NCBI GenBank assembly: GCA_015234465.1
Contig: JADGNA010000019.1
Coordinates: forward strand, 26,052 to 90,051
Origin: Salinibacterium sp.
GTDB taxonomy: Bacteria > Actinomycetota > Actinomycetes > Actinomycetales > Microbacteriaceae
Direction of reading: 5' to 3'
DNA: 64,000 bases
The notes beneath the pieces were generated by a model that saw only the letters and a program-made list of their open reading frames with translations, did not search any database and was not told the DNA's origin. Shown here one piece after another: positions 8,437-23,158 of this stretch. The translations under genes were made by a program, and so were the position numbers. Numbering within the stretch: the first letter of the stretch is position 1; each line of letters begins with the position of its first letter.

Positions 8437-9311
8437 GACTCGCCTCCCGTCGCGATCCGCCGACGAAGGTGGTCGCCGATCGTATTGAACGCGAAGACCG
8501 TGAGGAAGATCATGAGCGATGGCGCGATCACGAGGTAGGGCGCGCGCGTGAGGTTGTCTTTGCCGGAGGCGATCATGGAGCCCCAGCTCGGCGCGGGTGC
8601 CGGCACCCCGACGCCAAGGAAGCTCAGGGAGCCCTCGATCACGATGATGAGCGCAACGACCACGACCGAGTAGGAGATGATCGGCTGGATGCTGTTCGGC
8701 AGGAGCTCGCGGAACAGGATGCGCGCGTGGCCCGCCCCGAGGGACCGGGCGGCCGTGATGTAGTCACGGCCCAGCTGGCTGAGGGCCGCCGCCCGCGTCA
8801 AGCGCACGAAGGGCGGCACGAAGAGGAAGCCGAGCGCGATCACGAGGGTCGGCACGCCCGGTGTCACGACGGTCGCGAGGGCCAGCAGCAGCAGCAGCGG
8901 CGGGAACGACAGCACCGTGTCGGTCAGCACGTTGATGATCCGCTCGACCGCGCCGCGCGTGTAGGCAGCGAGCAAGCCGAGCAGCACACCGACGACAACC
9001 GCGATTGCGGTTGCCCCGACACCGACAGCGAGGGAGATACGGACGCCGTGGATGAGCCGCGAGGCGATATCGCGACCAATCGCGTCGGTGCCGAGAAGCG
9101 GCCCTTCACCAGAGAACGGCGGGATGCTTGGCCCTCCGACGGGCTCGTCGATTGCGGGAATGGGGAGGAGGTCGGCGACAAGCGCCAGCAGCGTGAGTAG
9201 CGCGATCCATGCGACCGCAAGCATGAAGCCCACGCGACGCGTGAGGGTGAAGCGCGGCGGGCGGCTGGTGCGTGCGGGCCTCGTGGCGGGGTCTTCGAGC
9301 GTGACGGTCAT
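8433..9311 (-). CDS. Peptide-type ABC transporter permease (DppC-like)
   Basis: A 292-residue membrane protein. A cytoplasmic N-terminus of about 30 residues is followed by one helix, the extracytoplasmic DppC segment with GTDAIGRDIASRLIHG, and five more helices with the EAA-type loop AARSLGAGHARILFRELLPN. The frame is open far upstream, but the family N-terminus and the ATGA overlap with the DppB-like stop codon fix the start at 9311. It partners the DppB-like permease encoded just upstream. Confidence 0.93.
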   Translation of the reverse strand: MTVTLEDPATRPARTSRPPRFTLTRRVGFMLAVAWIALLTLLALVADLLPIPAIDEPVGGPSIPPFSGEGPLLGTDAIGRDIASRLIHGVRISLAVGVGATAIAVVVGVLLGLLAAYTRGAVERIINVLTDTVLSFPPLLLLLALATVVTPGVPTLVIALGFLFVPPFVRLTRAAALSQLGRDYITAARSLGAGHARILFRELLPNSIQPIISYSVVVVALIIVIEGSLSFLGVGVPAPAPSWGSMIASGKDNLTRAPYLVIAPSLMIFLTVFAFNTIGDHLRRRIATGGES

Positions 9312-10318
9312 ATGCGTCGCATCCTGGGGTCGAGAAGGGCGTAGGTCGCATCGACGACCGCGTTGATGAGCACGTAGGTCACGGCGACGAGCACGACGAT
9401 GCCCTGGATCATGGGGATGTCCTTCGCCGGGATCGACTGCAGCGCGAGGCTGCCGAGCCCCGGAAGGGCGAAGAGGCTCTCCACGACGACCGAACCGGCG
9501 AGGAGTCGCCCGAACGCAACCGCGGCGACCGTGATGAGCGAGAACGACGACGGACGCAGCACATGCCTGCGCAGGATGTAGCCGCGTGGCATGCCGCGAA
9601 CGGTGGCCGTCTGCACGAAGTCCTCGCGCAGGGTCGAGATGACGTCGCTCCGGAGGAGGCGATAGAAGGCGGGGAACTCCCCCAGAGCGAGGGCGAGCAC
9701 GGGCACGAAGACGAAATGGAGGTTCTCGGCGAGACCCGAACTGAGCGGCGCCCAGCCAGCGACAGGGAACCAGCGGGTCGCCACCCCCAGTACATAGACA
9801 AGTAGCACGCCGATGACGAAGACGGGCACCGACATAAACCCCGATGCGAGCCCCGAGACGATGCGGTCGAACATCGAGTTCTCGCGTGAGGCCGCATAGA
9901 CGGCAGCGGGAATCGCGATCGCGAGCGAGAGCAGCAGGGCGAGCACCGTGAGTTCGAGCGTCACGGGCAGGCGCTGCAGCAGCACCTCGACGACGGGCTG
10001 GTTCGACTGGATCGAGACCCCGAGGTCGCCCGTGATCGCGTTGCCGAGCCACTGCAGGTATCGCAGCAGCAGCGGCTGGTCATACCCGTACTCGGCATTG
10101 AGCGCCGCGATGGCCTCGTCGCTGGCTGTCGGCCCAAGGATGATGGATGCCGGCGAGCCAGGCATGAGGTCGGTCAGCGCCGTGCCCGCGAGGGTCACGA
10201 GCACGAGCACGGCCACGAGGTGCAGCGCACGGCCGCCGATCGAGCGGAGCCGGTGGAGCGTGTGGGAGCGGGGCCGGATGTTGGACACCCGGGCCCGCTC
10301 CCGCTGGAGCACAGTCAC
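9308..10318 (-). CDS. Peptide-type ABC transporter permease (DppB-like)
   Basis: A 336-residue permease with the DppB landmarks: the MPGSPASIILGPTAS segment after the first helix, the extracytoplasmic YGYDQPLLLRYLQWLGN, and the loop TATVRGMPRGYILRRHVLRP that contacts the ATPase. The GTG start used here lies one base beyond the TAG stop of the binding-protein gene. No strong ribosome site is visible, so translation probably depends on ribosomes finishing the upstream gene. A second GTG 11 codons inside (VSNIRPRS) is a possible alternative start. Confidence 0.9.
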   Translation of the reverse strand: MTVLQRERARVSNIRPRSHTLHRLRSIGGRALHLVAVLVLVTLAGTALTDLMPGSPASIILGPTASDEAIAALNAEYGYDQPLLLRYLQWLGNAITGDLGVSIQSNQPVVEVLLQRLPVTLELTVLALLLSLAIAIPAAVYAASRENSMFDRIVSGLASGFMSVPVFVIGVLLVYVLGVATRWFPVAGWAPLSSGLAENLHFVFVPVLALALGEFPAFYRLLRSDVISTLREDFVQTATVRGMPRGYILRRHVLRPSSFSLITVAAVAFGRLLAGSVVVESLFALPGLGSLALQSIPAKDIPMIQGIVVLVAVTYVLINAVVDATYALLDPRMRRI

Positions 10319-10319
10319 G

Positions 10320-11888
10320 CTACGGCGCCGCCAACCACAGCCGGTCGTACAACAGCGAGCCGTCGCCGTGGAGCGTCAGCCCGTTGAGCGCTGTCGCGTG
10401 CACCGTGTACGCCTCCTGGTTGCGCACGAGCAGCACGGGTACCTCGTCGACGATGATCTGCTCGACCGTCGCATAGGCATCTCCACGCTCCCCCTCGTCG
10501 GTCGAGTTGCGTGCGGACTCGAGCGCCGCGTCGACCTCGGGGTTCGAGTAGCCCATGTAGTTGGTCTGGCCGCCCGTCTGCAGGAGCTTGGCGAAGTTGG
10601 GCTCCGGGTCACCCACGGGAACGATCTGTGCCGACAGTTGGTAGTCCCGGTTGCGGAAGACACGCTCGTCCAGCGTCGCGTTGTCGACGGTGTCGATCGT
10701 GACGGAGACGTTGTCGAACTGCGAGAGCCGGCTCTGCAGGTACTCCGCCGTCCTCGTGAAGAAGCCGCTCGCGGGCATCGTGATCGCGAAGGAGACCGCC
10801 TTGCCGTCGGCGGCGAGCTCGTCGAAGAGCTCCTGCGCGGCGTCCTTGTCGGGCTGCACGAACATGCTCTCTGAGGGGAAGAAGGCCGAGTCGGGCGCGT
10901 AGAAGCTCTCAGGAGCCGACGACCCGGGATCAACGACCGCCGTGAGGTCGTTGATGTCGAGCGCGAGCTGCACGGCCTTGCGTGCACGGACATCGTCGAA
11001 GGGCGCGTTCTCGACGTTGAACATGAGGAGGGGCCCGCCGCCGGTCGGGGCGCTCGTCACCTCAAGTCCGCTTCCCGTTGCCGACTCCTTGAAAGAGAGT
11101 TCGGAGCCGGGCACAGCGGCATGCGCCTGTCCCGTTGACACCGTGTTGATGCGCTGCGTCGGGTCTTTGATGGGCGTGAAGGTGATGGAGTCGAGGTATG
11201 GCTCGCCCTCCTTGAAGTAGTCCTCGTTGCGCACCAGCGTCATGTGGTCGTCGCGCACCCACTCCTCAAGCACGAATGGCCCGGCACCCACGGGATTGTT
11301 GGCGAAGTCGGCGTCGTTCTCGATCGCCGTGGGTGAGGCGATGTGCGTGAGGCTCGTCGCGAGCACCCGATCGAACTGCAGGTTCGGCTCGGGCAGTGCG
11401 ATCGTCAGGCTCGTGTCGTCGGCGACAGTGAAGCTCGCTCCCTCGAGCAGGCCGGCGAGAGGAGAGCCCGTCGCGGGATCCTGGATGCGCTCGTAGTTGA
11501 AGACGACCGCCTCCGCGTCGAGCGGCGTGCCATCCGTGAAGGTGATTCCCTCGTTCAGGGTGAGGGTCCACTCCGTGCCATCGTCGTTCGGTTCGAGCGA
11601 CTCGCCGAGCTGCGGAGTCACCTCGCCCGTCTTTGCGTCGGACCAGAACAGCACGTCGTAGATCGCCGACATGCGGTTGGCGTCACCCGACGGCGTCAGG
11701 TTGAACAGGAAGGCGGGATCGAGGCCGCGCACGGCCTCGATGCCCAGGATGATGGTCGCGTCGCCGCCCGCAACGGGCTCGCCGTCGGGCGATGCGCTCG
11801 GACTGGACGATTCGGGGGCGCAGGCGCTAAGACCCGCGATCATTGCGGCCGCAAGCGCTGCTGCGGCGATTCTTCTCGAGGTGCGCAC
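10320..11888 (-). CDS. Peptide-type ABC transporter substrate-binding lipoprotein (SBP_bac_5 family)
   Basis: A 522-residue binding protein, first gene of the seven-gene operon that runs to 4000. The GTG start at 11888 follows AGGA by 5 bases and gives a clean lipoprotein signal, basic residues then AAAMIAGLSAC with the lipid-modified cysteine near residue 22. The longer frame starting at 12098 would precede the promoter and was rejected. Family features include GESLEPNDDGTEWTLTLNEG and GAGPFVLEEWVRDDHMTLVRN, which are standard in DppA/OppA-type proteins. Such proteins bind peptides, opines, nickel chelates or sugars. The ligand is unknown here, but the operon partners (PrpD-like, CapA-like) suggest an unusual carboxylated or amide substrate. 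Confidence 0.92.
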   Translation of the reverse strand: MRTSRRIAAAALAAAMIAGLSACAPESSSPSASPDGEPVAGGDATIILGIEAVRGLDPAFLFNLTPSGDANRMSAIYDVLFWSDAKTGEVTPQLGESLEPNDDGTEWTLTLNEGITFTDGTPLDAEAVVFNYERIQDPATGSPLAGLLEGASFTVADDTSLTIALPEPNLQFDRVLATSLTHIASPTAIENDADFANNPVGAGPFVLEEWVRDDHMTLVRNEDYFKEGEPYLDSITFTPIKDPTQRINTVSTGQAHAAVPGSELSFKESATGSGLEVTSAPTGGGPLLMFNVENAPFDDVRARKAVQLALDINDLTAVVDPGSSAPESFYAPDSAFFPSESMFVQPDKDAAQELFDELAADGKAVSFAITMPASGFFTRTAEYLQSRLSQFDNVSVTIDTVDNATLDERVFRNRDYQLSAQIVPVGDPEPNFAKLLQTGGQTNYMGYSNPEVDAALESARNSTDEGERGDAYATVEQIIVDEVPVLLVRNQEAYTVHATALNGLTLHGDGSLLYDRLWLAAP

Positions 11889-11957
11889 GTGAGTCCTATC
11901 TCCGTTGATGGGCCCAGCGCTCAAAGGCGAGCGAGCGCGGGCGTGCTGTCGCCCAAT

Positions 11958-11986
11958 AGTATCCAGCGATTGTTTACGATCGTCAA
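11958..11986 (-). promoter_or_regulatory. Promoter of the dpp-like/PrpD/CapA operon
   Basis: On the - strand a -35 box TTGACG (11986-11981) and a -10 box GATACT (11963-11958) are 17 bases apart. The predicted start of transcription is about 60 bases before the binding-protein GTG. The -35 box lies inside a near-perfect palindrome, so a bound regulator would compete with RNA polymerase. Confidence 0.6.
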
Positions 11987-11987
11987 C
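11972..11987. promoter_or_regulatory. Near-perfect 16-base palindrome, candidate operator
   Basis: GTTTACGATCGTCAAC is its own reverse complement except at one symmetric pair of positions. It lies in an AT-richer patch between the divergent binding-protein and P450b genes and covers the -35 box of the - strand operon. The regulator is not identified. PaaX, encoded at 14283-13351 and convergent with P450b, is the closest candidate. Confidence 0.55.
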
Positions 11988-12082
11988 GTATTTGTCGCAT
12001 ATTTCTTCGCAGCACCTCGGCATTGCCTCAAAGCTGTGCTTCACACAGGCAGAGGGGCACATCCATTCATGCGACACGACGA

Positions 12083-12111
12083 TTGCCGCTCGGGGCATGC
12101 AATAGTAGAAT
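12083..12111 (+). promoter_or_regulatory. Promoter of P450b
   Basis: TTGCCG at 12083-12088 and TAGAAT at 12106-12111 are separated by exactly 17 bases. This is a good match to the main actinobacterial sigma-factor consensus. Transcription would begin near 12118, leaving a 25-base leader that contains the ribosome site AAGGAG at 12133. An inverted repeat CTGTG-N5-CACAG at 12034-12048 lies 35 bases upstream of the -35 box and could be a regulator site. Confidence 0.6.
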
Positions 12112-12142
12112 GATGGATACCGGCATGACGCGAAGGAGCACC

Positions 12143-13354
12143 ATGACCATCACGCCCGCTCGAGACCTCGAGCAGCCTGTTCCGGACGACTTCGACGCTG
12201 GCGCGCCCGAGACCTTCGACAGTCCCCACGCGATGTATCGACAGCTCCGGGACGAGCATCCAGTCGCCCGCTCGAATGCCTACGGTGGCTTCTGGGCCCT
12301 CACGCGCTTCGCTGACGTTGAGGCGGCGGCAAAGGATTCCGACCTCTACATCTCATCCGTGCGCGCGGTCGTGCCGAGCGATCCCCGAGGCATTCGCCGC
12401 CCGCCCCTCAACTTCGACGCACCGGCGCACTCCCCCTTTCGCCGTGCGCTCGACCGCACCCTGCACCACTCCCGCCTCGAACGGATCGAGGCCAAGTTGC
12501 AGGAACACGCTGCCCGCGAGATCACGCCGTTCATCGAGGCCGGCACGAGCGACATCTGCCAGGGCTTCGGCACGATCTACCCGGCCTTCACCGCAGCAGA
12601 GTGGCTCAATCTCGACCATGACGACGTCTACCGACTTGCATCGACGGCATCCGAGTGGGTGGATGCCTGGCGGCGACAGGACGGAGACTTCGTCACCGAA
12701 CGCAGCAACGAGATGTACGACATGGCCCGCGCCCTCGTCGCCGATCGCAAGGCGAACCCACGGCCCGTCGAGACCGATCCCGCCAGCTCGCTGCTCTCTG
12801 AGGAATACGAGGGTGCCCCACTCAGCGAGGAGCTCGTGGTCGGCGCCCTGCGCCAGTCCCTCGTCGTCGGCATGGTGGCTCCGCCCATTCTTCTCGGCGG
12901 CATCTGCGTGCACCTGGCACGCGACCCCGAACTCCAGCAGCAGCTCCGCGAGAACCCCCAGCTGCTCCCCGCCGCGGTCGAAGAGTTCGTGCGTCTCTAC
13001 ACCCCCTACCGCGGCTTCGCGCGCACAGTGGCCGAACCGGTCACTCTCCATGGCCGCACGATCAATCCCGACGAACCTGTGACGCTCGTCTACGCATCCG
13101 CGAATCGCGACGAGCGAGTGTTCGAACGCCCCGACGAGTTCATCCTCGACCGGCCCAACATCATGAAGCACCTGGGATTTGGGCGCGGACGCCACCGCTG
13201 CGTCGGCATGTCCCTTGCGAGGCTCAGCCTGCGCATCGCACTCGAGGAACTCCTCCGACGCACGAGCAGCATCGAGCTCGCGGGCGAAATCGAGACGACA
13301 CGGATGCCGGAGGTCGGCGCACAGGGCGTGCCCCTGCGCGTGACTGCCGCCTAG
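12143..13354 (+). CDS. Cytochrome P450 (P450b), paralogue of P450a
   Basis: A 403-residue P450 with heme loop FGRGRHRCVG (Cys353) and K-helix motif E281-F-V-R284, at the same residue numbers as P450a. The I helix reads VVGMVAPPIL (241-250), again without the acid-alcohol pair. Shared segments include VHLARDPELQ and AAVEEF. The start at 12143 is chosen for AAGGAG 5 bases upstream; in-frame ATGs further upstream precede or overlap the promoter. The stop codon TAG overlaps the stop of the convergent PaaX gene inside the palindrome CTAG. No redox partner gene lies in the neighbourhood. It is transcribed away from the peptide-type ABC operon from a shared intergenic region of 254 bases. Confidence 0.95.
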   Translation: MTITPARDLEQPVPDDFDAGAPETFDSPHAMYRQLRDEHPVARSNAYGGFWALTRFADVEAAAKDSDLYISSVRAVVPSDPRGIRRPPLNFDAPAHSPFRRALDRTLHHSRLERIEAKLQEHAAREITPFIEAGTSDICQGFGTIYPAFTAAEWLNLDHDDVYRLASTASEWVDAWRRQDGDFVTERSNEMYDMARALVADRKANPRPVETDPASSLLSEEYEGAPLSEELVVGALRQSLVVGMVAPPILLGGICVHLARDPELQQQLRENPQLLPAAVEEFVRLYTPYRGFARTVAEPVTLHGRTINPDEPVTLVYASANRDERVFERPDEFILDRPNIMKHLGFGRGRHRCVGMSLARLSLRIALEELLRRTSSIELAGEIETTRMPEVGAQGVPLRVTAA

Positions 13355-14283
13355 GCGTCGCGCGAGGTGTGGTGCGAGGCCAGCTGGGCGAGGTCGCGGT
13401 CGACATTGCCGATGATCTGCCGGAAGCGGCCCTCAGCCGTCGTGCCCAGCTCATCGTAGATGCGGTAGGCGACCTCTCGGGCGCGACGACGCGGCCAGTC
13501 CTCCGGCAGGAGCTCGGCGGGCAGGCTGGGGTCGACCTGTCGGAACTGCAGCCACTCGCTCATGACCTCGGTGCGCAGCACGAGCGCCTCGCTGGGGGCG
13601 ATCCGGCCCGCGACGACGGCCTCGATCATGGGCTCGTGCCTTGCGATGAAGTCGCGGTAGTCCGCCTCGAGTTCGCGCAGGTCGAAGACATCGACGAACG
13701 AGAGATCGCGGCCGGGTCGCGGCAGGATCTCGCCCCGCATGACACTCGCATCCGCGACATCAAGTTGTTCCAGGAGCGCGAGCGCCTGCTCGGTCCTGTG
13801 ATGTGGGGAGACCCAGATCGCATCGTTGAGCAGCCCGAACTTGAGGTCACGCAGGCCGTTGCGCAACAACCTGCGCACGTCCCTGGCCTTCTCGGGGATC
13901 GAGAATGACACGATGGTCCACTGCCCGTCCCAATCGGTGAACTCGAGGCCGAAGCGCAGCACGCGGCTGCGCCTCGCCGCGGTCGACTCCGTCATCTGCT
14001 CCGGGATGCCGTAATACGTGGTGCGTCCAGACTTCGACTGCTCGAGCATCCGGCGGTTCGTCAAGCGACGCATGGCCTGACGCGCGCTGCTCTCGGTGAC
14101 GTCGAACTCGGCGAGGAGATCGACGAGTGCAGAGGACGGGATCTTCTCGCGCCGGCCAAACCAGTAGTCGCCGAGCAGCGTGACAATGAGGTACTGCGGC
14201 TCGCGGCCCGTCGTGGAACGGGGCAGGTGGGGCCCGCTTGGGAGGAAGTCCATCCTCGATTCGCCCCTCGTCGGCGTGGTCAT
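13351..14283 (-). CDS. PaaX-family transcriptional regulator
   Basis: A 310-residue regulator. The N-terminal winged helix covers roughly residues 28-95, with YLIVTLLGDYWFG and a recognition region SSARQAMRRLTNRRMLEQ. The middle has the PaaX signature LRFGLEFTDWDGQWTIVSF followed by the basic RRLLRNGLRDLKFGLL. Family members repress catabolic genes and are usually released by acyl-CoA intermediates such as phenylacetyl-CoA. This fits its place at the end of an operon with a CoA-transferase and dehydratase-like subunits. Its ATG overlaps the stop of the upstream dehydratase-like gene (ATGA). The effector is unknown, and no phenylacetate genes are present. Confidence 0.9.
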   Translation of the reverse strand: MTTPTRGESRMDFLPSGPHLPRSTTGREPQYLIVTLLGDYWFGRREKIPSSALVDLLAEFDVTESSARQAMRRLTNRRMLEQSKSGRTTYYGIPEQMTESTAARRSRVLRFGLEFTDWDGQWTIVSFSIPEKARDVRRLLRNGLRDLKFGLLNDAIWVSPHHRTEQALALLEQLDVADASVMRGEILPRPGRDLSFVDVFDLRELEADYRDFIARHEPMIEAVVAGRIAPSEALVLRTEVMSEWLQFRQVDPSLPAELLPEDWPRRRAREVAYRIYDELGTTAEGRFRQIIGNVDRDLAQLASHHTSRDA

Positions 14284-15557
14284 GACTGCTCCACGTTATC
14301 CGAGGACAGCACCGATTTCGTGAGCCACGTCGCAACGCGACCCCTGAACTCGTCGACATCATAGGAACTGTCGTCAGCATTGTCGGCATGCACCTCGATC
14401 ACGGGGATGCCCGCCGCCTCGAGGGCGCGGGTGGTCGCCCAGTTGCCGCGCGGGTCATCCGACACAAGATGCACGACGCCGTCGACGCCGTGTTGGCGCG
14501 CCTGGTGCACGTACCACTCGGCTGACATGGGCGGCACGTAGAGGTGCTCGTGGAAGCCGACGAAGCGGGCAGCAAGGGCACGGAGTGGGTCGTCTCCGTA
14601 GCGAAGATAGCCGTCGGCCGCGATCGCGAGGTACATCGACCACACGAACACCGCACCGTACTCCTGCTCGAAGTGCCGGTAGAAGCCGAGGTCGAACCAG
14701 AGCCCGCGGCCCACCCACATGAGCCTCGCACGCTCGGGGTTCGCGAGTGCGCTGCCGCTCTCTACCCGCGCCTCCACCTCCCGGTAGAGCTGTTCGGCGG
14801 CGTCCCGCCCCCACTCCGTGCCCCGGTGCCACTGCGGCACCATGACTGAAGAGATGCTGTCGTTGACGCTGACGGGGCACGGCACGGCGATCGCGAGGAG
14901 GTCACGCGTGCGGCGATTCCACTCCGCCTGCTCGTTGCCGAGTGCCATGATCTCCGCGAGCCGTGTCGAGTCGAACTTCGAGCCGGTCTCCTCCTCAAGG
15001 AACGCGATGAGCTCGCGGAGCTCATCGACCATGAGGTCAATGCGATGCGAGCCGGTCAGTCGCTCCCAGTCGTGCGGGAGGGCATCCCACCATTCGCCGT
15101 CCATCTCCGGCTCCGCCGAGTTCTCGAGGGGAAAGAACGTGATGCCCTCCTGCTCCCCCCACACATCGAACACCTTGCGGGTGACGTCACCCGTGATGTC
15201 GCCCAGCACGAGGAACGGTCGAGGAAGGCCACCCCAAGGCGCCGTTGCGGGGTCGCTGTCGAAGACTGAACCGAGGCCGATCGCGTTGTACTGCTCGGAG
15301 TCACGCGGCAGCCCGCGCTCAGCGACAAGGTCGAGGTAGCGCTGGGCGCCAGACCTCGAGGCGGCGATGGATGACCACCACTGGTTGACGACGTAGGGGA
15401 TGTCGAAGGCGCGCAGGATCTCATGGGGGGTGTCGGCGTTCACGAGCGCGAAGCGGCCCCCATTGGCCACGTGTTCCTGCAGTCCGCGGAACCACTCGCG
15501 CTGGTAGGCGACCGCATCCCCCGCCGCGGTCAGGCGGTCACCGCGGTGTCGGCTCAT
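14280..15557 (-). CDS. 2-hydroxyacyl-CoA dehydratase (HGD-D/BcrC-like) subunit, cluster ligands missing
   Basis: A 425-residue protein that reads as an HgdA/HgdB/BcrB-C-fold subunit. It shows the N-terminal NGGRFALVNADTPHEILRAF region, the TDLLAIA-like helical linker, and a C-terminal Rossmann part with MWVGRGLWFDLGFYRHFEQ followed by DGVVHLVSDDPRGNW. Classical members carry conserved cysteines that hold a [4Fe-4S] cluster. Here Cys227 is the only cysteine, and the usual cysteine places hold Ser, Tyr or Asp (LPRDSEQYNAIG; SDDPRGNW). The ATG overlaps the stop of the partner subunit (ATGA), which supports a heterodimer. No activator ATPase (HgdC-type) is in the window. Function could be dehydration by another mechanism, binding of CoA esters, or something new. 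Confidence 0.75.
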   Translation of the reverse strand: MSRHRGDRLTAAGDAVAYQREWFRGLQEHVANGGRFALVNADTPHEILRAFDIPYVVNQWWSSIAASRSGAQRYLDLVAERGLPRDSEQYNAIGLGSVFDSDPATAPWGGLPRPFLVLGDITGDVTRKVFDVWGEQEGITFFPLENSAEPEMDGEWWDALPHDWERLTGSHRIDLMVDELRELIAFLEEETGSKFDSTRLAEIMALGNEQAEWNRRTRDLLAIAVPCPVSVNDSISSVMVPQWHRGTEWGRDAAEQLYREVEARVESGSALANPERARLMWVGRGLWFDLGFYRHFEQEYGAVFVWSMYLAIAADGYLRYGDDPLRALAARFVGFHEHLYVPPMSAEWYVHQARQHGVDGVVHLVSDDPRGNWATTRALEAAGIPVIEVHADNADDSSYDVDEFRGRVATWLTKSVLSSDNVEQS

Positions 15558-16747
15558 CGGTTGACTCCCGTCTGCTCTGGTGCTCGAAGGGCCACGTCGA
15601 GCTCCTCGGCGTCGATCGCGCCGTAGGGCTGTCGCACGACGACGGCCGAGGGTACGGATGCCGCGGCCCGCTGTGCGGCGAAGTCCCACAGCGGCGCCTC
15701 GTCCATGACCCGCACGTAGCTCAGCAGGAGTTCAGCGCCGGTGCGTCGGATTCCCTCCGCCGTGTGTTCCGCCCTCGCGGCGATGGACCCGCGTTGCGCG
15801 GTGGGCCCGCTGTACTGGTACCGGTCGGCGATCGCGTCGAGGAGGCTCTCCAGGTCGCGGGCGGGGGCAACGTCCCGTTCCGCGAGCAACTCTCCGCGGT
15901 CGTGGTTCTCCCCCACGATCGTCGCGCCATGGGCCTCGATCGCCCGGTAGACGTCGGGGCTGTCGTGTGTGCTGCCGGTCACGAAGATGCGCGTACCGGG
16001 GCGCGGCCCAAGCTCGTCACCGCCCGCGACAAGCGACTCGAGGCATCCGGCGTATCGCTCCCCTGCCATCCTGTCGGCCGCGGCGAAGACCGCGAGGGCG
16101 TCCACCCCGCTCAACCTGGGCTCGGGCGAACGACGAAGCTCCATGACGGCCCGCTGCAGTTCGCGTCGCCGATTGTGGGCGATCACGGCGTGCTCCAGCC
16201 CGGCGTCGCTCACCCGGTTGCCGGTCCATCGCTCGAGCACCTCGAGCAATTGCCGCACGCGCACGCGGTTGTAGCGAGCGGTCGATTCGCGCGGCAGGTG
16301 CAGGATGTCGACGAGGTAGACGGGCGGCACCGCGATCTCGGGGGTGACCCGGCGCATCTCCCTCAGCACATAGAAGAGCCGCTGCGATGCGTCGCAGTCG
16401 CTCGAGATCACGATCGCGTCGAGGCGGCCGAAGGCACCGTCGAGGATTCCCTCCATGAGCGAGCGCATGGCGGGATCGAGCCCCTTGCCGAGGTATCGGT
16501 CGGCGCTCTCGGTCAGCCAAGCCGGGTTGCCGCGAAGCCGCAGCGCGACGGCGCCGGCAGCATCGATGATCTCGACCGGCACGTCCTGCCCCACGGTGCC
16601 GACGACGAATGCCTCGGGCCGGTACGAGGCATCGCGACGTGCCGCGCTGCTGATCTCGGCGAGGGCGGATGCTGCAGACGTGGGTGGCAAGGGGACTCCC
16701 TGGTTTGGCGGGGCGATGGGCGGCGGTGCGGAGTTGTTCTCAGCCAT
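15554..16747 (-). CDS. 2-hydroxyacyl-CoA dehydratase (HGD-D/HgdB-like) partner subunit, one cluster cysteine left
   Basis: A 397-residue protein with the HgdB layout: a long ADRYLGKGLDPAMRSLMEGI segment, VISSDCDASQRLF, the helical AHNRRRELQRAVMELRRSP linker, and a second Rossmann part with GTRIFVTGSTHDSPDVYRAI. In classical members cysteines sit in the first, second and last of these landmarks. Here only Cys118 (SDCDAS) remains, the first being LDPAMRS and the last SYVRVMDEAP. The start at 16747 has GGGAGG about 10 bases upstream and overlaps the end of the MFS gene by 8 bases. An in-frame ATG at 16783 is less likely. It probably pairs with the following gene product. The proline-rich first 25 residues are unusual. 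Confidence 0.75.
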   Translation of the reverse strand: MAENNSAPPPIAPPNQGVPLPPTSAASALAEISSAARRDASYRPEAFVVGTVGQDVPVEIIDAAGAVALRLRGNPAWLTESADRYLGKGLDPAMRSLMEGILDGAFGRLDAIVISSDCDASQRLFYVLREMRRVTPEIAVPPVYLVDILHLPRESTARYNRVRVRQLLEVLERWTGNRVSDAGLEHAVIAHNRRRELQRAVMELRRSPEPRLSGVDALAVFAAADRMAGERYAGCLESLVAGGDELGPRPGTRIFVTGSTHDSPDVYRAIEAHGATIVGENHDRGELLAERDVAPARDLESLLDAIADRYQYSGPTAQRGSIAARAEHTAEGIRRTGAELLLSYVRVMDEAPLWDFAAQRAAASVPSAVVVRQPYGAIDAEELDVALRAPEQTGVNR

Positions 16748-17999
16748 CGGCGACCACCTCCCTTCGCGCTCGCTGTCGCCCAAGGGCGAGGCAGACCACG
16801 CCCGCGCACACTGCCGTGACGACGGCGGCGACGCCGAGCGCCGTCTGGCCCGAGGTCAGGTCGATCAGCACGCCGACGAGGAGCGCGCCGATGGGGGCAA
16901 CCCCCTGCTGGCCCATCGTCACGAGTGACATGGTGCGGCCGAGGGCGTGGGGTGCAGATTCGCCCTGGGCTGCGCCGCTCAGCACTCCCTGGTAGACGCC
17001 GATCCCGACGCCGAGCAGAGGCGCCGCCATGAGGAACAGCAGCAGGCTCGGGGCGGCCGCATTCACCGCGAGGGTCACGGAGAAGAGGAGGCACGCCGGC
17101 ACGAGGGTGAGCGCTCCAAGGCGCGTGTAGCGGGCGAGGAGCAGACCGCCGACGACGGCGCCGACAGCGTTGAGCGCATGGGTCGCGCCGAGTTGCCCCG
17201 CGTCTCCCTCAAAGGAGAGCGAGACGATCGACGTGAGCACGACGTTCATGTTCATCGCGGCGACCGTGACGATGACGTTGACCGCGAGGATCACGACGAG
17301 CGCCCGGTTCGAGCGCACCTCCCGCAGGTTCTCGCGCACGGTCGGGCGTGGCCCCTCCGCACGCAGGCGCGGGTGGAGCTCGCTCGGCCTGATGAGCAGC
17401 ACGGCGACGAGCACCGCGAGGTAGGTGGCGGCGTTGATGAGCAGGCATGCCGTCGGGCCGACCGCGAGGAACGCGACGCCCGCGAGCCCCGGCCCGATCG
17501 AGCGGGCGGCCGAGATGTACACGGTGCTCAGCACGACCGCGTTGCGCAGGAGCTCGGCACCCACGAGCTCATAGATGAAGGCTTGGGCGGCCACCCGCTC
17601 GAAGGCGTGCACGCATCCGGAGACGACGATGAGGCCATAGAGCCAGCCGAGCGAGGGTTCCTCCTGGCCGACCGCGACCGCCAGCCCGCATGTCACGAGC
17701 ACGGCGATGGCGGATGTCACGGCCAGGATCATTCGCGGCGGCACCGAGTCAGCGAGCCTCCCGGCGGGCGCCCCGAGCAGCAGGATCGGGCCGAACTGCG
17801 CCACCGTGACGAGCGCGAGCGCGCTCGCACTACCCGTAATCTGCACGACGATGAGCGAGATGGCGAGGTTCTGGAACCAGGTTCCCGTGTTGGAGACCAG
17901 TTGGCCCGTGAAGTAGCGCGTGAAATTGGGCACACGGAAGGCCGCGAGCGATCCGCCCGTCCCCCCTGCAGCCTTCACCGCCGACTCCGCATTCGTCAC
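16740..17999 (-). CDS. Major facilitator superfamily transporter
   Basis: A 419-residue membrane protein with about 12 predicted helices. It shows the MFS loop between helices 2 and 3 as LGAPAGRLADSVPPRMIL and a start like that of enterobactin-exporter-type MFS proteins (FRVPNFTRYFTGQLVSNTGTWFQ). The GTG start at 17999 lies 13 bases after the CoA-transferase stop. Another in-frame GTG 8 codons upstream overlaps that stop and cannot be excluded. It could export an intermediate or import the substrate; the subgroup more often exports. It lies between the CoA-transferase and dehydratase-like genes of the same operon. Confidence 0.88.
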   Translation of the reverse strand: MTNAESAVKAAGGTGGSLAAFRVPNFTRYFTGQLVSNTGTWFQNLAISLIVVQITGSASALALVTVAQFGPILLLGAPAGRLADSVPPRMILAVTSAIAVLVTCGLAVAVGQEEPSLGWLYGLIVVSGCVHAFERVAAQAFIYELVGAELLRNAVVLSTVYISAARSIGPGLAGVAFLAVGPTACLLINAATYLAVLVAVLLIRPSELHPRLRAEGPRPTVRENLREVRSNRALVVILAVNVIVTVAAMNMNVVLTSIVSLSFEGDAGQLGATHALNAVGAVVGGLLLARYTRLGALTLVPACLLFSVTLAVNAAAPSLLLFLMAAPLLGVGIGVYQGVLSGAAQGESAPHALGRTMSLVTMGQQGVAPIGALLVGVLIDLTSGQTALGVAAVVTAVCAGVVCLALGRQRARREVVADG

Positions 18000-18012
18000 T
18001 CGTCCAGGCCGG

Positions 18013-19257
18013 TCACAGCGCACCGGAGTCGCGAAGCTTTGCGATCTGCTCGTCGGCGTAGCCGAGGAGGGAGCGCAAGACGGTCTCCGTGTGTTCGCCG
18101 AGGCCGGGCGCGGGCTCGCTGAGGGAGGTCTCGCTCGCGGACAGTCGCATCGGCAGCCCCGCGCCGAACAGCTCCTCCTGCACCCCGAAGCTCGGGTGCG
18201 CGAGTTGCACGACCTCTCCCCTCTCGCGCACGAGCGGATCGCGCACGGCTTCCGCGGTGCTGCGCACGGGCGCGGCCGGCACGCCCGCCGCCTCGAGGCG
18301 AGCCGTCGCATCCGCCGTCGTGAGGTGCTGCGCCCACTGGGCGATCATGGCGTGCAGGGTGTCGGCGTTCGCCACCCTCCCGTCGCGACGTGCGAAGCGC
18401 TCGTCGTCGGCGAGTTCGGGAGTGCCCAGCGCAGTCATGACGCCGCGCGCGAACTCGTCGGTCGGCGCGCACAGGGCGAACCAGCCGTCGCTCGTCGCGA
18501 AGGTGCCGAAGGGCGCGAGGCGCGGAACGTAGTCGCCCGTGCGGAGCGGCAGGCCGATTTTCTCGAAGGCGTCGAAGGGCTCGCAGGCCACGAGCGAGGT
18601 CAGGGCACCGAGCATCGAGACGTCGACGTGCTGCCCCTCGCCCGTGCGTTCGGCCTGTAGCACGGCCGCGAGCGTGCCGATCACGCCGAAGAGGGGCGCC
18701 ACGAGGTCGCCGATCGGCAGCCCGAAGCGCACGGGACCGTCGCCCGGCTTGCCCGCCGTCATCATGACGCCGCTCAACGCCTGGATGATCGTGTCCATGG
18801 CCTTGCCCGTGCCGGCGCCGCCCTGGGCGCCGAAGCCGCTGATCGACGTGTAGACGAGCGCGGGGTTCAGGTGCCGCACGCTTTCGTAGTCGATTCCGAG
18901 ACGCGAGGTGACGCCGGCGCTGTAGTTCTCGACGACGATGTCGGCGTTGGCCACGAGATCGAGGAAGACCTGGCGAGCCTCGGGGTGCTTCATGTTGAGC
19001 GTCACGCTCTCCTTGTTTCGCCCCCGGAGCATCATCGAGACCGACATGTCCTCGTCGCTGGTCCGCAGCACGCTCAACCCCTCGCGCGTCACATAGGGAG
19101 AGTTGTTGCGCGAGCTGTCCCCTCCCCGCGTCGGGTTCTCGACCTTGATGACTCGCGCGCCGAGGCCCGCAAGCAGGAGCGTCGCGTAGGGGCCGGAGAG
19201 GGCGGTCGTGAGGTCGATGACGGTCTTGCCCTCGAGCGGGCGTGCGGTGGTGCTCAT
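18013..19257 (-). CDS. CaiB/BaiF-family (class III) CoA-transferase
   Basis: A 414-residue enzyme that moves CoA from one acyl-CoA to a free carboxylic acid. The family N-terminus is clear (LEGKTVIDLTTALSGPYAT), with VIKVENPTRGGDSSR and VENYSAGVTSRLGIDYE. The catalytic aspartate is Asp155 in GKAMDTIIQALSG. The ATG at 19257 has AAGGA 10 bases upstream and lies 20 bases after the CapA copy 2 stop codon. In context it would activate a carboxylate for the dehydratase-like pair encoded two genes later. The donor and acceptor are not predictable. Confidence 0.93.
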   Translation of the reverse strand: MSTTARPLEGKTVIDLTTALSGPYATLLLAGLGARVIKVENPTRGGDSSRNNSPYVTREGLSVLRTSDEDMSVSMMLRGRNKESVTLNMKHPEARQVFLDLVANADIVVENYSAGVTSRLGIDYESVRHLNPALVYTSISGFGAQGGAGTGKAMDTIIQALSGVMMTAGKPGDGPVRFGLPIGDLVAPLFGVIGTLAAVLQAERTGEGQHVDVSMLGALTSLVACEPFDAFEKIGLPLRTGDYVPRLAPFGTFATSDGWFALCAPTDEFARGVMTALGTPELADDERFARRDGRVANADTLHAMIAQWAQHLTTADATARLEAAGVPAAPVRSTAEAVRDPLVRERGEVVQLAHPSFGVQEELFGAGLPMRLSASETSLSEPAPGLGEHTETVLRSLLGYADEQIAKLRDSGAL

Positions 19258-19277: not shown

Positions 19278-20417
19278 TCACGCGTCGGGGGCTGAGACGC
19301 GGACTTCGCGGCCCTGCCAGCTGAACCGTGTGTCGAGTTCGACCTCGCGCGTGATGTCTTCGATGTATGCGGCGACCTGCCGCCCCTTCTCGTCGTCCCC
19401 GAGCGGCACCGGTCGCGCATCGTCGTCGATCCAGCACGGGATGAATCCGCCCGAGACCGCGCCCTGCTCGTCGACCGAGATGACGGCGATCGCTGTGTTG
19501 CGGCTCTCGGGGTGGAAGGCATAGGTGGGCATCGCGGGGTCTGGGCTGAAGCCGAACAGTTTCTTGCGCCGCTTCGCCCACGCCTGGCGCTCGGGTGAGT
19601 TCTCGTCGCCGCTCGAGAGGGCGGATGTCACGGTCACGAAGTTGCCCAAGCCGTGGAAGATTGGCGCACCGCGGTAGACCTCGATGCCCCGCATGATGTG
19701 CGCGTGATGGGCGATGACGGCGGATGCCCCGGCGTCGACGGCCGCGCGGGCGATCTCGAACTCATACGCCGCGATCTCAGCGGGCAGGTGCCCGATGCCC
19801 TTGTGCAGCGCCGCGATCACGATGTCGACCCGCCCTGCGAGCTCGCGCACGGCATCCGTGAAGGTGCGCAGCGAGGCGGGGTCGCAGAAGCTGTAGACGG
19901 TGGGCGGCCCGCCGGGGTTGGCGCTGTCGAGCTCGTAGTGCGTGATGACCTTGACGGATGCCGCACCCGGCTTGCGCGACGTCGCCCACGATTCCCGGGG
20001 GCCGACGCAGTTGACGTTGATGACGCCGATGCGGTGGCCACCCCGTTCCACGATGGCGGGCTCCCACGCCTCCGTGAGGTTCATTCCCGCGCCGGTCGGG
20101 GTCATGCCCGCCTCGCGGCACAGCCGCACGGTGTCGGCGATCCCCTGCGGGCCGCAGTCGTAGATGTGGTTGCCCGCGAGGGTCGCGACGGCGAAGCCAG
20201 CGCGTCCCGCCGCAGCGAGGTTCGCGGGGTCGGCCGGAGGGGCCGGCACGTCGACGCTCGCGCACTCAGTCGAGGTCGTGTGTGGCACCTCGACCTGGGC
20301 GATGGCCAGATCCGCCTGTTGCAACAGCGGCGTGCTCGCCTCGAAGTAGAAGTCGGGATTCGGCTCGTCGAGCACGAGGTCGCCGACCGCCATGATCGTC
20401 ACCGGCTGCTTCATCAT
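19278..20417 (-). CDS. CapA-family protein (metallophosphatase-like fold), copy 2
   Basis: A 379-residue CapA-family protein starting [19 protein letters not shown]. Landmarks are [14 protein letters not shown] and [24 protein letters not shown]. Where copy 1 has SAHWGIHF, this one has [11 protein letters not shown], so the active site differs between the copies. Cysteines near the start (STECASVD) and middle are not part of a known motif. The ATG overlaps the stop of the ABC ATPase gene (ATGA), so it is made together with an amino-acid-type importer, just as copy 1 is made with a peptide-type importer. This repeated pairing suggests that these proteins act on imported substrates. Confidence 0.88.
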
Positions 20418-21214
20418 GAGACCGCCTGCCTTCCCTCGGAGTACCGCGTGAGGAACGACCTGAGACGGTCGGTGCGCGGCGAGGCGAAGAACTCCGCCGA
20501 CGGGCCCTCCTCGACGACGCGACCCTCCGCCATGAAGACGCAGCGGTCGGCGACCTCGCGGGCGAAGTCCATCTCGTGGGTCACCACGACCATCGTCATG
20601 CCGGCACGCGCGAGGCTCTTCATGACCGCGAGCACCTCGTCGACGAGTTCCGGGTCGAGTGCGCTCGTCGGCTCATCGAAGAGGAGCACACGCGGATTCG
20701 GGGCGACGGCGCGGGCAATCGCGACCCGCTGCTGCTGGCCGCCGGAGAGCTGCCGCGGGTGCGCATCCGCCTTGTCCGACAGCCCGACCTTCTCGAGAAG
20801 TTCGAGCGCGCGGGCGCGAGCCTTCGCGGCGGGCACCCCATGCACCTTCGTGGGAGCCTCCGTGATGTTGCGCAGCACACTCCAGTGTGGGAACAGATTG
20901 AACTGCTGGAAGACCATCCCCATCTGCCTGCGCTGCTGCTCCACCTGGCGCTCGCTGCGGGGACGGAGGCCCCCGCGATGCTCCTCAAAGCCGAGGAGTT
21001 CGCCGTCGAGGTACATTGCGCCGCCATCGATCGACTCGAGCTGGTGCAGGCAGCGCACGAGCGTCGACTTGCCGGAACCGGACGGTCCCAGGATCGCAAC
21101 GACATCACCCTCGGCGACGCTCAGGTCCACTCCGTCCAGGGCCAGGGTGTCACCGAATCGCTTCACGACGCCCCGTGCCTCCAGCACGGTCTTGCGGGTG
21201 GTCTCGGCGTTCAT
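20414..21214 (-). CDS. Polar amino-acid-type ABC transporter ATP-binding protein (GlnQ-like)
   Basis: A 266-residue ATPase with Walker [14 protein letters not shown]-loop [18 protein letters not shown], signature [14 protein letters not shown] and Walker [15 protein letters not shown], followed by [16 protein letters not shown]. These are textbook GlnQ/HisP features. An insert around [16 protein letters not shown] lengthens the region between Walker A and the Q-loop. The ATG overlaps the permease stop codon (ATGA). It powers the permease encoded upstream. Confidence 0.95.
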
Positions 21215-22185
21215 GCGCCCTTCCCCTTCCTGCGCGCGCGCCCCGTGGCATCCGTCTCGCCGGCGGGTTCTGGGAGCGCAACGGCGCCAGTGAGCATCGT
21301 GCGCACCTGCCCCGTCTTCGGCATCGCCGTGGCGGCACGGTCGTAGCCGCGGCCGAAGTAGCGCTCGATGCGGCGCTGCCCCATCGTGAGCAGGGTCACG
21401 ACGACGAGATACCAGATGACCGCGACGAGGAGCAGCGGCACGACCTGGTAGGTGCGGTTGTAGATGACCTGCACGGAGTGCAGCAGGTCACCCATCGCGA
21501 TGACGGAGACGAGCGACGTGCCCTTGAGCAGCCCGATGAACTGACTGCCCGTGGGCGGGATGATGACGCGCATCGACTGCGGCAGCACGACCTTCATGAA
21601 GGTCTGCAGGCGGCTGAAGCCCATCGCCCTCGCGGCATCCTTCTGGCCCGTGTCGACCGCGAGGATGCCGGAGCGCACGATCTCCGCCATGTAGGCGGCC
21701 TCGTGCAGGCTCAGGCCGATGATGGCGGCCGTGAGCGGACTGATGAGGTCGTTCGACGACCAGGAGTAGAGCTCGGGGCCGAATGGCACGCCGATCGAGA
21801 TGCGCGGCACGAGGTACGCGAGGTTGAACCAGAAGATCAGCTGCACGAGGGGCGGGATGCCGCGGAAGACCCCGACATAGAGCTGACAGATCCAGCGCAC
21901 GGGGCCGAAGTCGCTCAGTTGCCCGGCCGCGATGAGCGTGCCGAGCACCGAGCCGATGACCATGCCGACGATCGTCAGGAAGATCGTCATCCACAGGCCC
22001 GTGAGCACGTTCGGATTGAAGAGATAGCTCGCGACGACGCCCCACTCGAGGCGTTCGTTCGTCACGAGGAAGATGACGACCTGCAGCATCACGATCGCGA
22101 TCGCGGCGCCGCCGACGAGTCGCCACGGCCGGAACCGGGGTCGGGCGGATGCGACGTCATGCGTCGCGAGGGCTGGGGTGCTCAT
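21211..22185 (-). CDS. Polar amino-acid-type ABC transporter permease (GlnP/HisM-like)
   Basis: A 324-residue permease. After a first helix it shows the GlnP-type core: [30 protein letters not shown], and the ATPase-contact loop [20 protein letters not shown]. The N-terminal 55 residues and a charged C-terminal tail of about 45 residues (ending RRKGKGA) extend beyond the usual core. Only one permease gene is present, so the channel is probably a homodimer. It is separated from the binding-protein gene by a 70-base gap that contains a hairpin. Confidence 0.93.
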
Positions 22186-22217
22186 TCTTCTCCTGGTGCG
22201 AAGGCTGGCAAGGGGTG

Positions 22218-22241
22218 GGCGGGCCCGTCACCGGGCCCGCC
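22218..22241 (-). terminator. Hairpin between binding-protein and permease genes
   Basis: GGCGGGCCCG and CGGGCCCGCC form a perfect 10-base stem around a 4-base loop. It lies 14 bases after the binding-protein stop and has no T-run. It probably protects the binding-protein message or stops part of transcription, so that binding protein exceeds permease, a common arrangement in ABC operons. Confidence 0.6.
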
Positions 22242-22255
22242 GCTCGGCTGACTCG

Positions 22256-23158
22256 TCAGCCCGTGACGGGGTTGTAGAGGGGCTCGTCGACAGCGACGTT
22301 CTCGAGCCCCCACTTCTCCATGAACTCGATGTACTGGCCGCTCTCGAACAGGTTCTGCATCGCCTTGTACAGCACCGGGCCGAGCTCGTTGTCCTTCGGC
22401 GCGAACATTGCGAGGAGGTCAACGCCGGCCCCCTGCGCGTCGGACTGCGTGTGGTACGCGAAGGTGTCCGGCGTCTTGTCGAGGATGTCGATCGCGGCGG
22501 TCTCCGTCACGGCGAGGGCGTCGACTCGCTCGGACTGCACGGCGAGGATGGTCGAGTTGGTGTCGGCGAGCCCGACGAAGGTGTTTGCCTCCATGCCCTC
22601 CGAGACGCACCAGTCATTGAGCGCAGCGACCTGTGTCTCGGTGACGGAGCCCGTGACTCCCGAGATCTGGATGCCGCAGAGGTCCTCCTCCGACTCGAAG
22701 TCGTCTTCGCGACTCTCGAGGAAGACGTAGGAGGTGCGGGTCGTGAGCCACACGACGGCGTCGAAGTCCGCCTCGCGTTCCTCGGTCGTGCGCACAGGAC
22801 CGTTGAACGCGTCGTAGCGCCCCGAGAGCATGCCCGTGAGGATTGCGGGGAGCCCCGAGGCGATGTCGATCTCGATGTCAACGCCGAGCTGCTCCTCGAG
22901 CATGGCCTGGAACTCGGGGTCGATGCCTGTGACCGATCCGTCCTCTTCAACGGTGCGATAGGGCGGGTGACTGTCGCCTGCAAAGGTCAGGGTGCCTTTA
23001 TCCTTCGCCCACTGGGGAAGCTCGTCGTAGAGGGGCGCCTCAGCGGTCCCGGTCGCGGGCTCCGTGGGGTCCGGCTCCTCGGCGGGCGTGGCGCATCCCG
23101 CCAGGAGCAGCCCGGCGGCGCCGAGAGTGAAGAGTGCCATGGGTCGGTGCAGGCGCAT
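22256..23158 (-). CDS. Amino-acid-type ABC transporter substrate-binding lipoprotein
   Basis: A 300-residue family 3 (SBP_bac_3) binding protein, first gene of the nine-gene operon ending at 13351. The signal has a basic start, a hydrophobic core and lipobox LLAGC (Cys22), followed by a Pro/Glu-rich linker. The core shows GTLTFAGDSHPPYRTVEEDG and TGIDPEFQAMLEEQLGVD, typical of this family. It has a cysteine pair (DLCGIQISG and LNDWCVSEG) also found in relatives. The ligand is unknown. Company with a CoA-transferase and dehydratase-like proteins suggests an amino or organic acid. Confidence 0.92.
   Translation of the reverse strand: MRLHRPMALFTLGAAGLLLAGCATPAEEPDPTEPATGTAEAPLYDELPQWAKDKGTLTFAGDSHPPYRTVEEDGSVTGIDPEFQAMLEEQLGVDIEIDIASGLPAILTGMLSGRYDAFNGPVRTTEEREADFDAVVWLTTRTSYVFLESREDDFESEEDLCGIQISGVTGSVTETQVAALNDWCVSEGMEANTFVGLADTNSTILAVQSERVDALAVTETAAIDILDKTPDTFAYHTQSDAQGAGVDLLAMFAPKDNELGPVLYKAMQNLFESGQYIEFMEKWGLENVAVDEPLYNPVTG

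Follow-up and report, generated by a model that had tools for sequence, protein, structure and literature searches.

The BCR/HAD (HGD-D) superfamily of benzoyl-CoA reductases and 2-hydroxyacyl-CoA dehydratases is textbook chemistry requiring a low-potential Fe-S cluster, ATP and the absence of oxygen. Here we analyse UP and DOWN, two adjacent genes for paired members of this superfamily in a 64,000-nucleotide stretch of Salinibacterium sp. (GenBank assembly GCA_015234465.1, contig JADGNA010000019.1, positions 26,052 to 90,051 of the forward strand; ‘the window’), in which, judged by alignment, most cluster cysteines are replaced by acidic residues. The closest described systems are the class I benzoyl-CoA reductase BzdNO, the dehydratase HadBC and the double-cubane cluster protein DCCP. 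In BzdNO, the cluster ligands are Cys36, 73, 100, 263, 293 and 327 of BzdN and Cys95, 128 and 380 of BzdO; in BzdO, Tyr97, Tyr298 and Gln274 hold the thioester oxygen, and Glu65 and His131 form the acid/base pair beside the cluster water (PMC11971306).

Results

An alpha/beta HGD-D pair

An earlier reading of this DNA from its letters alone (the first-pass annotation) had proposed two adjacent, coupled genes of HgdA/HgdB fold, and this is borne out by the gene overlap (ATGA), the HGD-D profile and the predicted fold.

15554..16747, minus strand: UP, 397 amino acids (aa), beta-type HGD-D subunit (BzdN/HadC-like)
14280..15557, minus strand: DOWN, 425 aa, alpha-type HGD-D subunit (BzdO/HadB-like), likely the catalytic subunit

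The sole Pfam family of each protein is PF06050 (HGD-D), at 2.6e-39 (136 bits) for UP and 2e-42 (146 bits) for DOWN against a cut-off of 28.4 bits, so that the assignment to another family for which the first-pass annotation had allowed was not seen. The two are the only HGD-D matches in the whole host genome (2.80 Mb, 99.97% complete). In NCBIfam, UP lies weakly near the double-cubane, BzdN, BcrC and HadC models and DOWN weakly near the BzdO, HadB and double-cubane models, in each case far below the equivalog cut-offs. Both proteins have the predicted two-domain alpha/beta fold of the superfamily, and the tree recovers its pairing of subunits, with DOWN among the alpha subunits and UP among the beta subunits and DCCP (100/100). 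Fold prediction and tree together thus class UP as a BzdN/HadC-type and DOWN as a BzdO/HadB-type subunit.

A wrong family call was rejected, as Pfam gives HGD-D only and the best hits, by sequence as well as by fold, belong without exception to BCR/HAD/DCCP proteins; low-Z fold matches (response-regulator, metal-binding-protein and NifEN among others) were set aside. A degraded pseudogene pair was also rejected: both frames are open, and UP lies near DOWN in 78 of 80 related loci (the best 80 of 157, each taken with at most 10 kb on either side, less where the contig was shorter).

Acidic residues at the cluster-ligand positions

The pair contains three cysteines, C118 and C235 in UP and C227 in DOWN; the first-pass annotation had their number right and gave the second UP cysteine as 234, which is 235 counted from the ATG. 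As yardsticks for the ligand positions we used canonical pairs and DCCP-like proteins from same-phylum genomes, plus the published BzdNO ligands. The residues at these positions are encoded as follows.

16475..16477, minus strand: codon of UP D91, BzdN Cys73 column by order (MAFFT, hhalign, HMMER against DCCP)
16394..16396, minus strand: codon of UP C118, BzdN Cys100 ligand column, the sole cluster-position cysteine remaining
15701..15703, minus strand: codon of UP D349, last universal cluster-cysteine column, BzdN Cys327 by order (MAFFT, hhalign)
15294..15296, minus strand: codon of DOWN E88, BzdO Cys95 column by order (HMMER against MbdO, MAFFT, hhalign)
15186..15188, minus strand: codon of DOWN D124, BzdO Cys128 by order, within one residue (MAFFT, hhalign)
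14454..14456, minus strand: codon of DOWN D368, at or adjoining the BzdO Cys380 position, the loop being shorter in DOWN

In UP, the three MAFFT columns that are cysteine in all nine canonical rows are occupied by D91, C118 and D349, and hhalign places the same residues on the ligand columns. Because these columns are universal, they probably correspond to the proximal cubane. With DCCP as the target, HMMER pairs both D91 and C118 with cysteines; with BzdN as the target, it equates G53 with Cys36 and C118 with Cys100, but Cys73 with L90, one residue before D91. The other three BzdN double-cubane positions are G53, D283 (variable) and P315 in UP. Across 27 family rows, D91 and D349 are each found in 27/27, and C118 is Cys in 25 and Ser in two; across 81 UP rows, D91 is kept in 81/81 and D349 in all 80 rows with a letter (one cell is a gap), while position 118 is Cys in 69, Ser in 11 and Arg in one. 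The 27-row column map leaves out P0025 (partial) and P0029, both restored in the 81-row counts, and P0030 and P0031 were left out of all UP alignments. The 81 UP rows and the 200 DOWN rows used below include near-copies (199 of the 200 DOWN rows are distinct).

As a separate observation, the beta subunits of three canonical loci (L128, L129 and L130) carry Pro at the first cluster-cysteine column and keep the three universal ones; they are possible halfway forms.

In DOWN, two MAFFT columns that are cysteine in all six canonical rows fall on E88 and D124, and the third falls on P369, adjoining D368. HMMER against MbdO sets E88 on a cysteine and the next cysteine on V125 rather than D124, a second, weak HMMER segment (1.4 bits) sets D368 on BzdO Cys380, and hhalign places E88 and D124 on ligand columns with a gap at the third. 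In a large MAFFT run, the canonical cysteines at D124 were scattered across neighbouring columns. The DOWN alignment drew on 38 of 120 listed proteins; the conservation counts took all 120, which with the 80 loci make 200 actinobacterial-type rows. Position 88 is E in 175, D in 11, R in seven, L in six and Y in one of these rows (acidic in 186/200), D124 is present in 200/200 and D368 in 198/200. The three cysteines of the catalytic [4Fe-4S] cluster in the alpha subunit are thus represented by E88, D124 and D368, at or adjoining their places. In predicted secondary structure, all six ligand-position residues of the pair lie at a helix start or in a strand-helix loop, and since they occupy ligand columns, the acids probably converge in space.

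C118 is therefore the only cysteine on a universal column of the beta subunit, C235 and C227 being off the ligand columns; position 227 of DOWN is Cys in just 121/200 rows, and 13 of the 120 listed DOWN proteins (the query is among the 120) contain no cysteine at all. The first-pass statement that the pair lacks the Fe-S cysteines accordingly stands for five of six positions and fails for C118, and the arrangement which that annotation named as speaking against it, remaining cysteines at all cluster positions, was not found. By alignment, five of the six aligned cubane cysteines are lost, with conserved acids at or beside their places. Beyond the first-pass annotation, the alignments indicate that the cysteines are not merely lost, being mostly swapped for strongly conserved carboxylates.

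The thioester pocket

The residues that hold the thioester oxygen in BzdO have counterparts in DOWN, with a change at one of them, and the catalytic glutamate is replaced.

15288..15290, minus strand: codon of DOWN Y90, BzdO Tyr97 equivalent, two residues past the E88/Cys column
14631..14633, minus strand: codon of DOWN Y309, BzdO Tyr298 equivalent (alignment to BzdO)
14706..14708, minus strand: codon of DOWN R284, at BzdO Gln274 (alignment to BzdO)
15381..15383, minus strand: codon of DOWN Q59, at the position of the catalytic Glu65 of BzdO (alignment to MbdO)

Y90 is invariant in 200/200 actinobacterial-type rows and in 122/122 rows of a sphingomonad-type sister branch described below, and Y309 in 199/200 and 122/122, so at residue level both tyrosine equivalents are retained. 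R284 is R in 200/200 actinobacterial-type rows. Position 59 is Gln in 322/322 DOWN rows vs Glu in 7/7 canonical rows; the Glu65 of class I benzoyl-CoA reductase is therefore absent. The retention of a CoA-thioester site together with the loss of the radical machinery is the main reason to propose polar, enolate-type chemistry.

Search for an activator

The first-pass annotation had claimed that the ATP-driven activator is absent and that the host looks aerobic, and both claims are upheld. The activator family PF01869 gave no match in the host genome, the same search being positive in 10 of 14 control genomes; the activator gene elsewhere that the first-pass annotation had named as counting against its view was not seen. 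A gene for a haem-copper oxidase is present in the host (PF00115, 1.2e-162). A profile made from six activator sequences, drawn from four loci, found none in the 80 related loci, in the window or in three plasmid loci (L132-L134); as a control it was positive in four of five canonical loci (L125, itself the source of one of the six sequences, L128, L130 and L135) and negative in the short L129.

Each of the five other genomes in which DOWN matches strongly (G368, G411, G469, G495 and G561) also has PF01869 matches. In four of them they reach 1.3e-33 to 3.1e-22, vs best values of 1.7e-50 to 2.5e-66 in eight genomes with canonical HGD-D proteins; we presume that these four weaker matches may be sugar-kinase-like members of that broad family. 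The fifth, G469, has one match at 6.6e-58. The lack of an activator is thus firmly supported in the host genome and within the neighbourhoods (at most 10 kb on either side), but this does not extend to every genome.

A four-cysteine sister branch

Plasmid searches returned eight records, all alphaproteobacterial, of which seven match at 37-40% identity. The sphingomonad plasmids among them carry a distinct type of DOWN and of UP.

L132:14001-15287 and L133:13950-15251 (sphingomonad plasmids), with P0152-P0271: sister DOWN branch, four invariant cysteines (CxxC + CxC)
L132:11036-11923 and L133:10970-11854: UP orthologues, annotated ‘hypothetical protein’, middle part much shortened

In this branch C88, C91, C123, C125 and D124 are invariant (122/122 rows), and position 368 is D in 116, E in five and A in one. 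Positions 88, 91, 123 and 125 are never Cys in the 200 actinobacterial-type rows. C88 lies on the canonical ligand column and C91, C123 and C125 lie off it. That a sister branch carries four invariant cysteines in this region is supported by the alignment and goes beyond the first-pass annotation. The four cysteines likely bind Zn or an Fe-S cluster in the same pocket, and it is chiefly they that hint at a metal in the actinobacterial pocket too.

In the two sphingomonad UP orthologues examined, R70 is replaced by L/A, D91 by P, C118 by D and R346 by A/T, and D349 is kept. Within a given locus UP is also less similar than DOWN: 64 vs 86% in L003 (Salinibacterium sedimenticola) and 32 vs 55% in L079, for instance. 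This divergence, with the shortened sphingomonad UP, is as expected if electron relay by UP is no longer needed.

The gene order in Novosphingobium and Croceicoccus is CapA, two tripartite ATP-independent periplasmic (TRAP) permease genes, the UP orthologue, a double-length CaiB, DOWN, DctP, another gene and a second CaiB. The double-length CoA-transferases (L132:11920-14004 and L133:11851-13953; 694 and 700 aa) belong to the same operon, and Pfam finds two CoA_transf_3 stretches in that of L132.

The eighth plasmid record, from Rhizobium leguminosarum (25% identity), carries a canonical pair and two annotated activases. Canonical HGD-D pairs with cluster cysteines and nearby activators were seen at L135:11809-14255 (the Rhizobium leguminosarum plasmid) and at L130:8795-11307 (the host's class). 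The groups that carry these two pairs are usually regarded as aerobic.

Genomic context

The genes around UP and DOWN in the window are as follows.

18013..19257, minus strand: class III (CaiB) CoA-transferase, 414 aa from the ATG at 19257; PF02515 3.9e-109, PDB relatives
19278..20417, minus strand: CapA-like PGA_cap protein, 379 aa; PF09587 5.9e-50
16740..18311, minus strand: open reading frame of a major facilitator superfamily (MFS) transporter; PF05977; 5' end uncertain, the MFS match starting at frame residue 120
20414..23158, minus strand: ATP-binding cassette (ABC) transporter with family 3 binding protein (PF00005, PF00528, PF00497), comprising ATPase 20414-21214, permease 21211-22185 and binding protein 22256-23158
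13351..14283, minus strand: PaaX-type regulator; PF07848/PF20803/PF08223

The first-pass annotation had taken the association with a CaiB-type CoA-transferase as support for a CoA-ester role, and the association proves general: CaiB occurs in 79 of the 80 stretches, UP in 78, CapA in 68, PaaX in 59 and the ABC binding protein in 54. The CoA_transf_3 domain of the CaiB neighbour spans the full PF02515 profile (1-366 of 366). By tblastn, CapA, CaiB and UP lie upstream of DOWN on the same strand in 65/80 loci, and CaiB and UP do so in 12 more; in L080 (Chloroflexi) all three lie beside DOWN on the other strand, the contig of L071 is 3.7 kb long, and no UP is found in L058. The MFS gene, which sits between CaiB and UP in the window, is found in 9/80 loci.

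The only PDB relatives of the CapA-like protein are 8gqb, 8gq9 and 8ith, and it matches the NCBIfam model of the lasso-peptide epimerase MslH weakly (89 bits, cut-off 700). Given the 8gqb and 8gq9 relatives and the MslH match, ‘capsule synthesis’ is probably a misleading name here. The PDB relatives of the ABC binding protein are amino-acid binding proteins. Transporter types vary, however, from the family 3 binding protein to TRAP in two sphingomonad plasmids, and dipeptide-type permease relatives occur in 9/81 neighbourhoods and an alpha/beta hydrolase in 11/81. Because the transporters differ, the substrate can be described only as a small carboxylate or amino-acid-like compound.

In the host's class, the DOWN profile matches 8 of 394 genomes, six of them strongly (host included), a patchy distribution of the kind that an accessory catabolic pathway would show. 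The cassette itself resembles an uncharacterised route for the breakdown of a carboxylic acid. Among the candidates scored, 2,180 DOWN homologues were counted at E 1e-3, a number that includes more distant HGD-D proteins. The pair thus belongs to a large, patchily spread family, which the first-pass annotation had not recorded.

Elsewhere in the window, positions 7441-13354 contain an oligopeptide/dipeptide-type ABC operon (PF00496, PF00528, PF08352) and, on the other strand beside the PaaX regulator, a P450 gene whose relatives occur in 12/81 neighbourhoods, the window included.

Discussion

We tentatively favour, at somewhat short of even confidence, a reading in which UP and DOWN form a paired alpha/beta HGD-D enzyme, free of cluster and activator, that performs polar (enolate-type), probably oxygen-tolerant, rather than radical chemistry on a CoA thioester supplied by the neighbouring CoA-transferase. 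The alignments give good support for the loss of the cluster cysteines, as the genome search does for the lack of an activator in the host, and both favour the ‘cluster-free branch’ of the first-pass annotation; its ‘different chemistry’ is a step that we still infer. The carboxylates probably hold a hard metal ion or act as acid/base. These results suggest that the annotation ‘2-hydroxyacyl-CoA dehydratase’ is misleading for proteins of the UP/DOWN type.

In the proposed mechanism, a small carboxylic acid would be imported, perhaps processed by CapA, and then loaded onto CoA by CaiB. DOWN would bind the thioester, with Y90, Y309 and R284 contacting its oxygen. A hard divalent metal ion with bound water would probably sit in the former cluster pocket, held by D124 and D368 (plus E88 where present), and this metal or water could polarise the thioester or supply hydroxide for a lyase-type reaction, for instance the addition or loss of water. 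UP would serve as a structural partner with its own D91/C118/D349 site, electron relay being no longer required.

Several observations weigh against this reading. The pairing of D124 and D368 with their cysteines is accurate to no better than one residue, and of the three alignments that position D91, one (HMMER against BzdN) shifts it from Cys73 by a single residue. Position 88 is non-acidic in 14/200 rows, all in more distant loci (L051 onward), which indicates that E88 is not essential everywhere, and D368 is replaced by Gly in P0053 and by Ala in L080, the Chloroflexi copy. The part of the oxygen-binding site assigned to R284 is not universal by alignment, as this position is Ala in 122/122 sister-branch rows. 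In UP, R70 aligns with BzdN Arg53 (HMMER) and could pair with D91; as both are gone from both sphingomonad orthologues, a salt bridge fits as well as a metal site does.

It is possible, if doubtful, that the pair is free of metal as well as cluster, with basic residues neutralising the acids and one or two Asp serving as acid/base on the CoA thioester. Suitable basic residues are invariant in DOWN (R172 and H244 in 322/322 rows, K/R128 in 200/200 actinobacterial-type rows) and in UP (R70 81/81, R346 80/80), position 88 can be R or L, and R70, R346 and D91 have disappeared jointly from the two sphingomonad UP orthologues examined. Acids on the ligand columns of both subunits are, however, more than catalysis in one would need, and the four invariant cysteines of the sister branch, in the same region, resemble a metal or cluster site.

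A pseudo-enzyme or sensor is unlikely. Such a heterodimer would be a non-catalytic binder of a CoA thioester, perhaps working alongside the CoA-transferase or CapA, in line with the altered cluster ligands and Glu65, the divergence of UP and the presence of UP and CaiB beside DOWN in 77/80 loci. Against it, DOWN has 107 positions at least 98.5% identical in 200 rows, including Q59, Y90, D124, H244 and Y309, a degree of conservation that a mere binder would hardly need.

We give little credence to an Fe-S cluster still bound through the carboxylates (plus UP C118), with radical chemistry driven by an unrecognised electron donor. Other proteins are known in which one Asp serves as a ligand of an Fe-S cluster, and C118 is kept in 69/81 rows, but the cysteine-free DOWN proteins (13/120), the host's oxidase and the failure to find an activator in the searches above all speak against it, and to our knowledge a cubane held by carboxylates alone would have no precedent. 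An ordinary 2-hydroxyacyl-CoA dehydratase that relies on an activator from another source is highly improbable and was rejected: the CaiB, beta and alpha cassette resembles what we take to be hadA-hadC-hadB minus hadI, and five other DOWN genomes have PF01869 matches somewhere, but for this host the idea is already contradicted by the absent cluster cysteines and by the lack of any activator match in its nearly complete genome and in the 80 loci.

The boldest form of the favoured reading, which we put forward as speculative, is that a radical Fe-S family has been converted to an oxygen-tolerant carboxylate-metal enzyme. With fold and thioester pocket unchanged, the cubane thiolates of both subunits would have become Asp/Glu, the ATP-dependent activator would have been discarded and one-electron ketyl chemistry would have given way to two-electron enolate chemistry, in an undescribed aerobic pathway (ABC or TRAP uptake, CapA, CaiB, UP-DOWN) common to actinobacteria and, as a four-cysteine variant, to sphingomonads. 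Among the matches listed in open-licence PubMed Central, no title or abstract start concerned a cysteine-free HGD-D branch or this cassette. A widespread branch that appears to keep the fold and the thioester pocket, with thiolates exchanged for carboxylates, makes directly testable how a radical enzyme family enters aerobic life and what the fold does without its cluster.

Comparison with known systems

Relative to BzdNO (PDB 8s02), the acids of DOWN stand within one residue of BzdO Cys95/128/380, UP keeps only the Cys100 equivalent of the six BzdN double-cubane cysteines, DOWN has Gln for Glu65, and no activator gene was found for UP/DOWN in the genome and loci searched (PMC11971306). DCCP (PDB 6eno, 7yyl) is the best PDB sequence match of UP (4.7e-14). 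The six cysteines of its [8Fe-9S] cluster are reduced to one of six columns in UP, DCCP-like proteins form a separate clade in the tree, and UP is made with a distinct partner. Compared with HadBC, the (R)-2-hydroxyisocaproyl-CoA dehydratase (PDB 3o3m, 3o3n, 3o3o), DOWN is without a cluster-position cysteine and the locus without a HadI-type activator; the UP/DOWN genes run in the order beta-alpha and are linked to CapA, PaaX and an ABC transporter.

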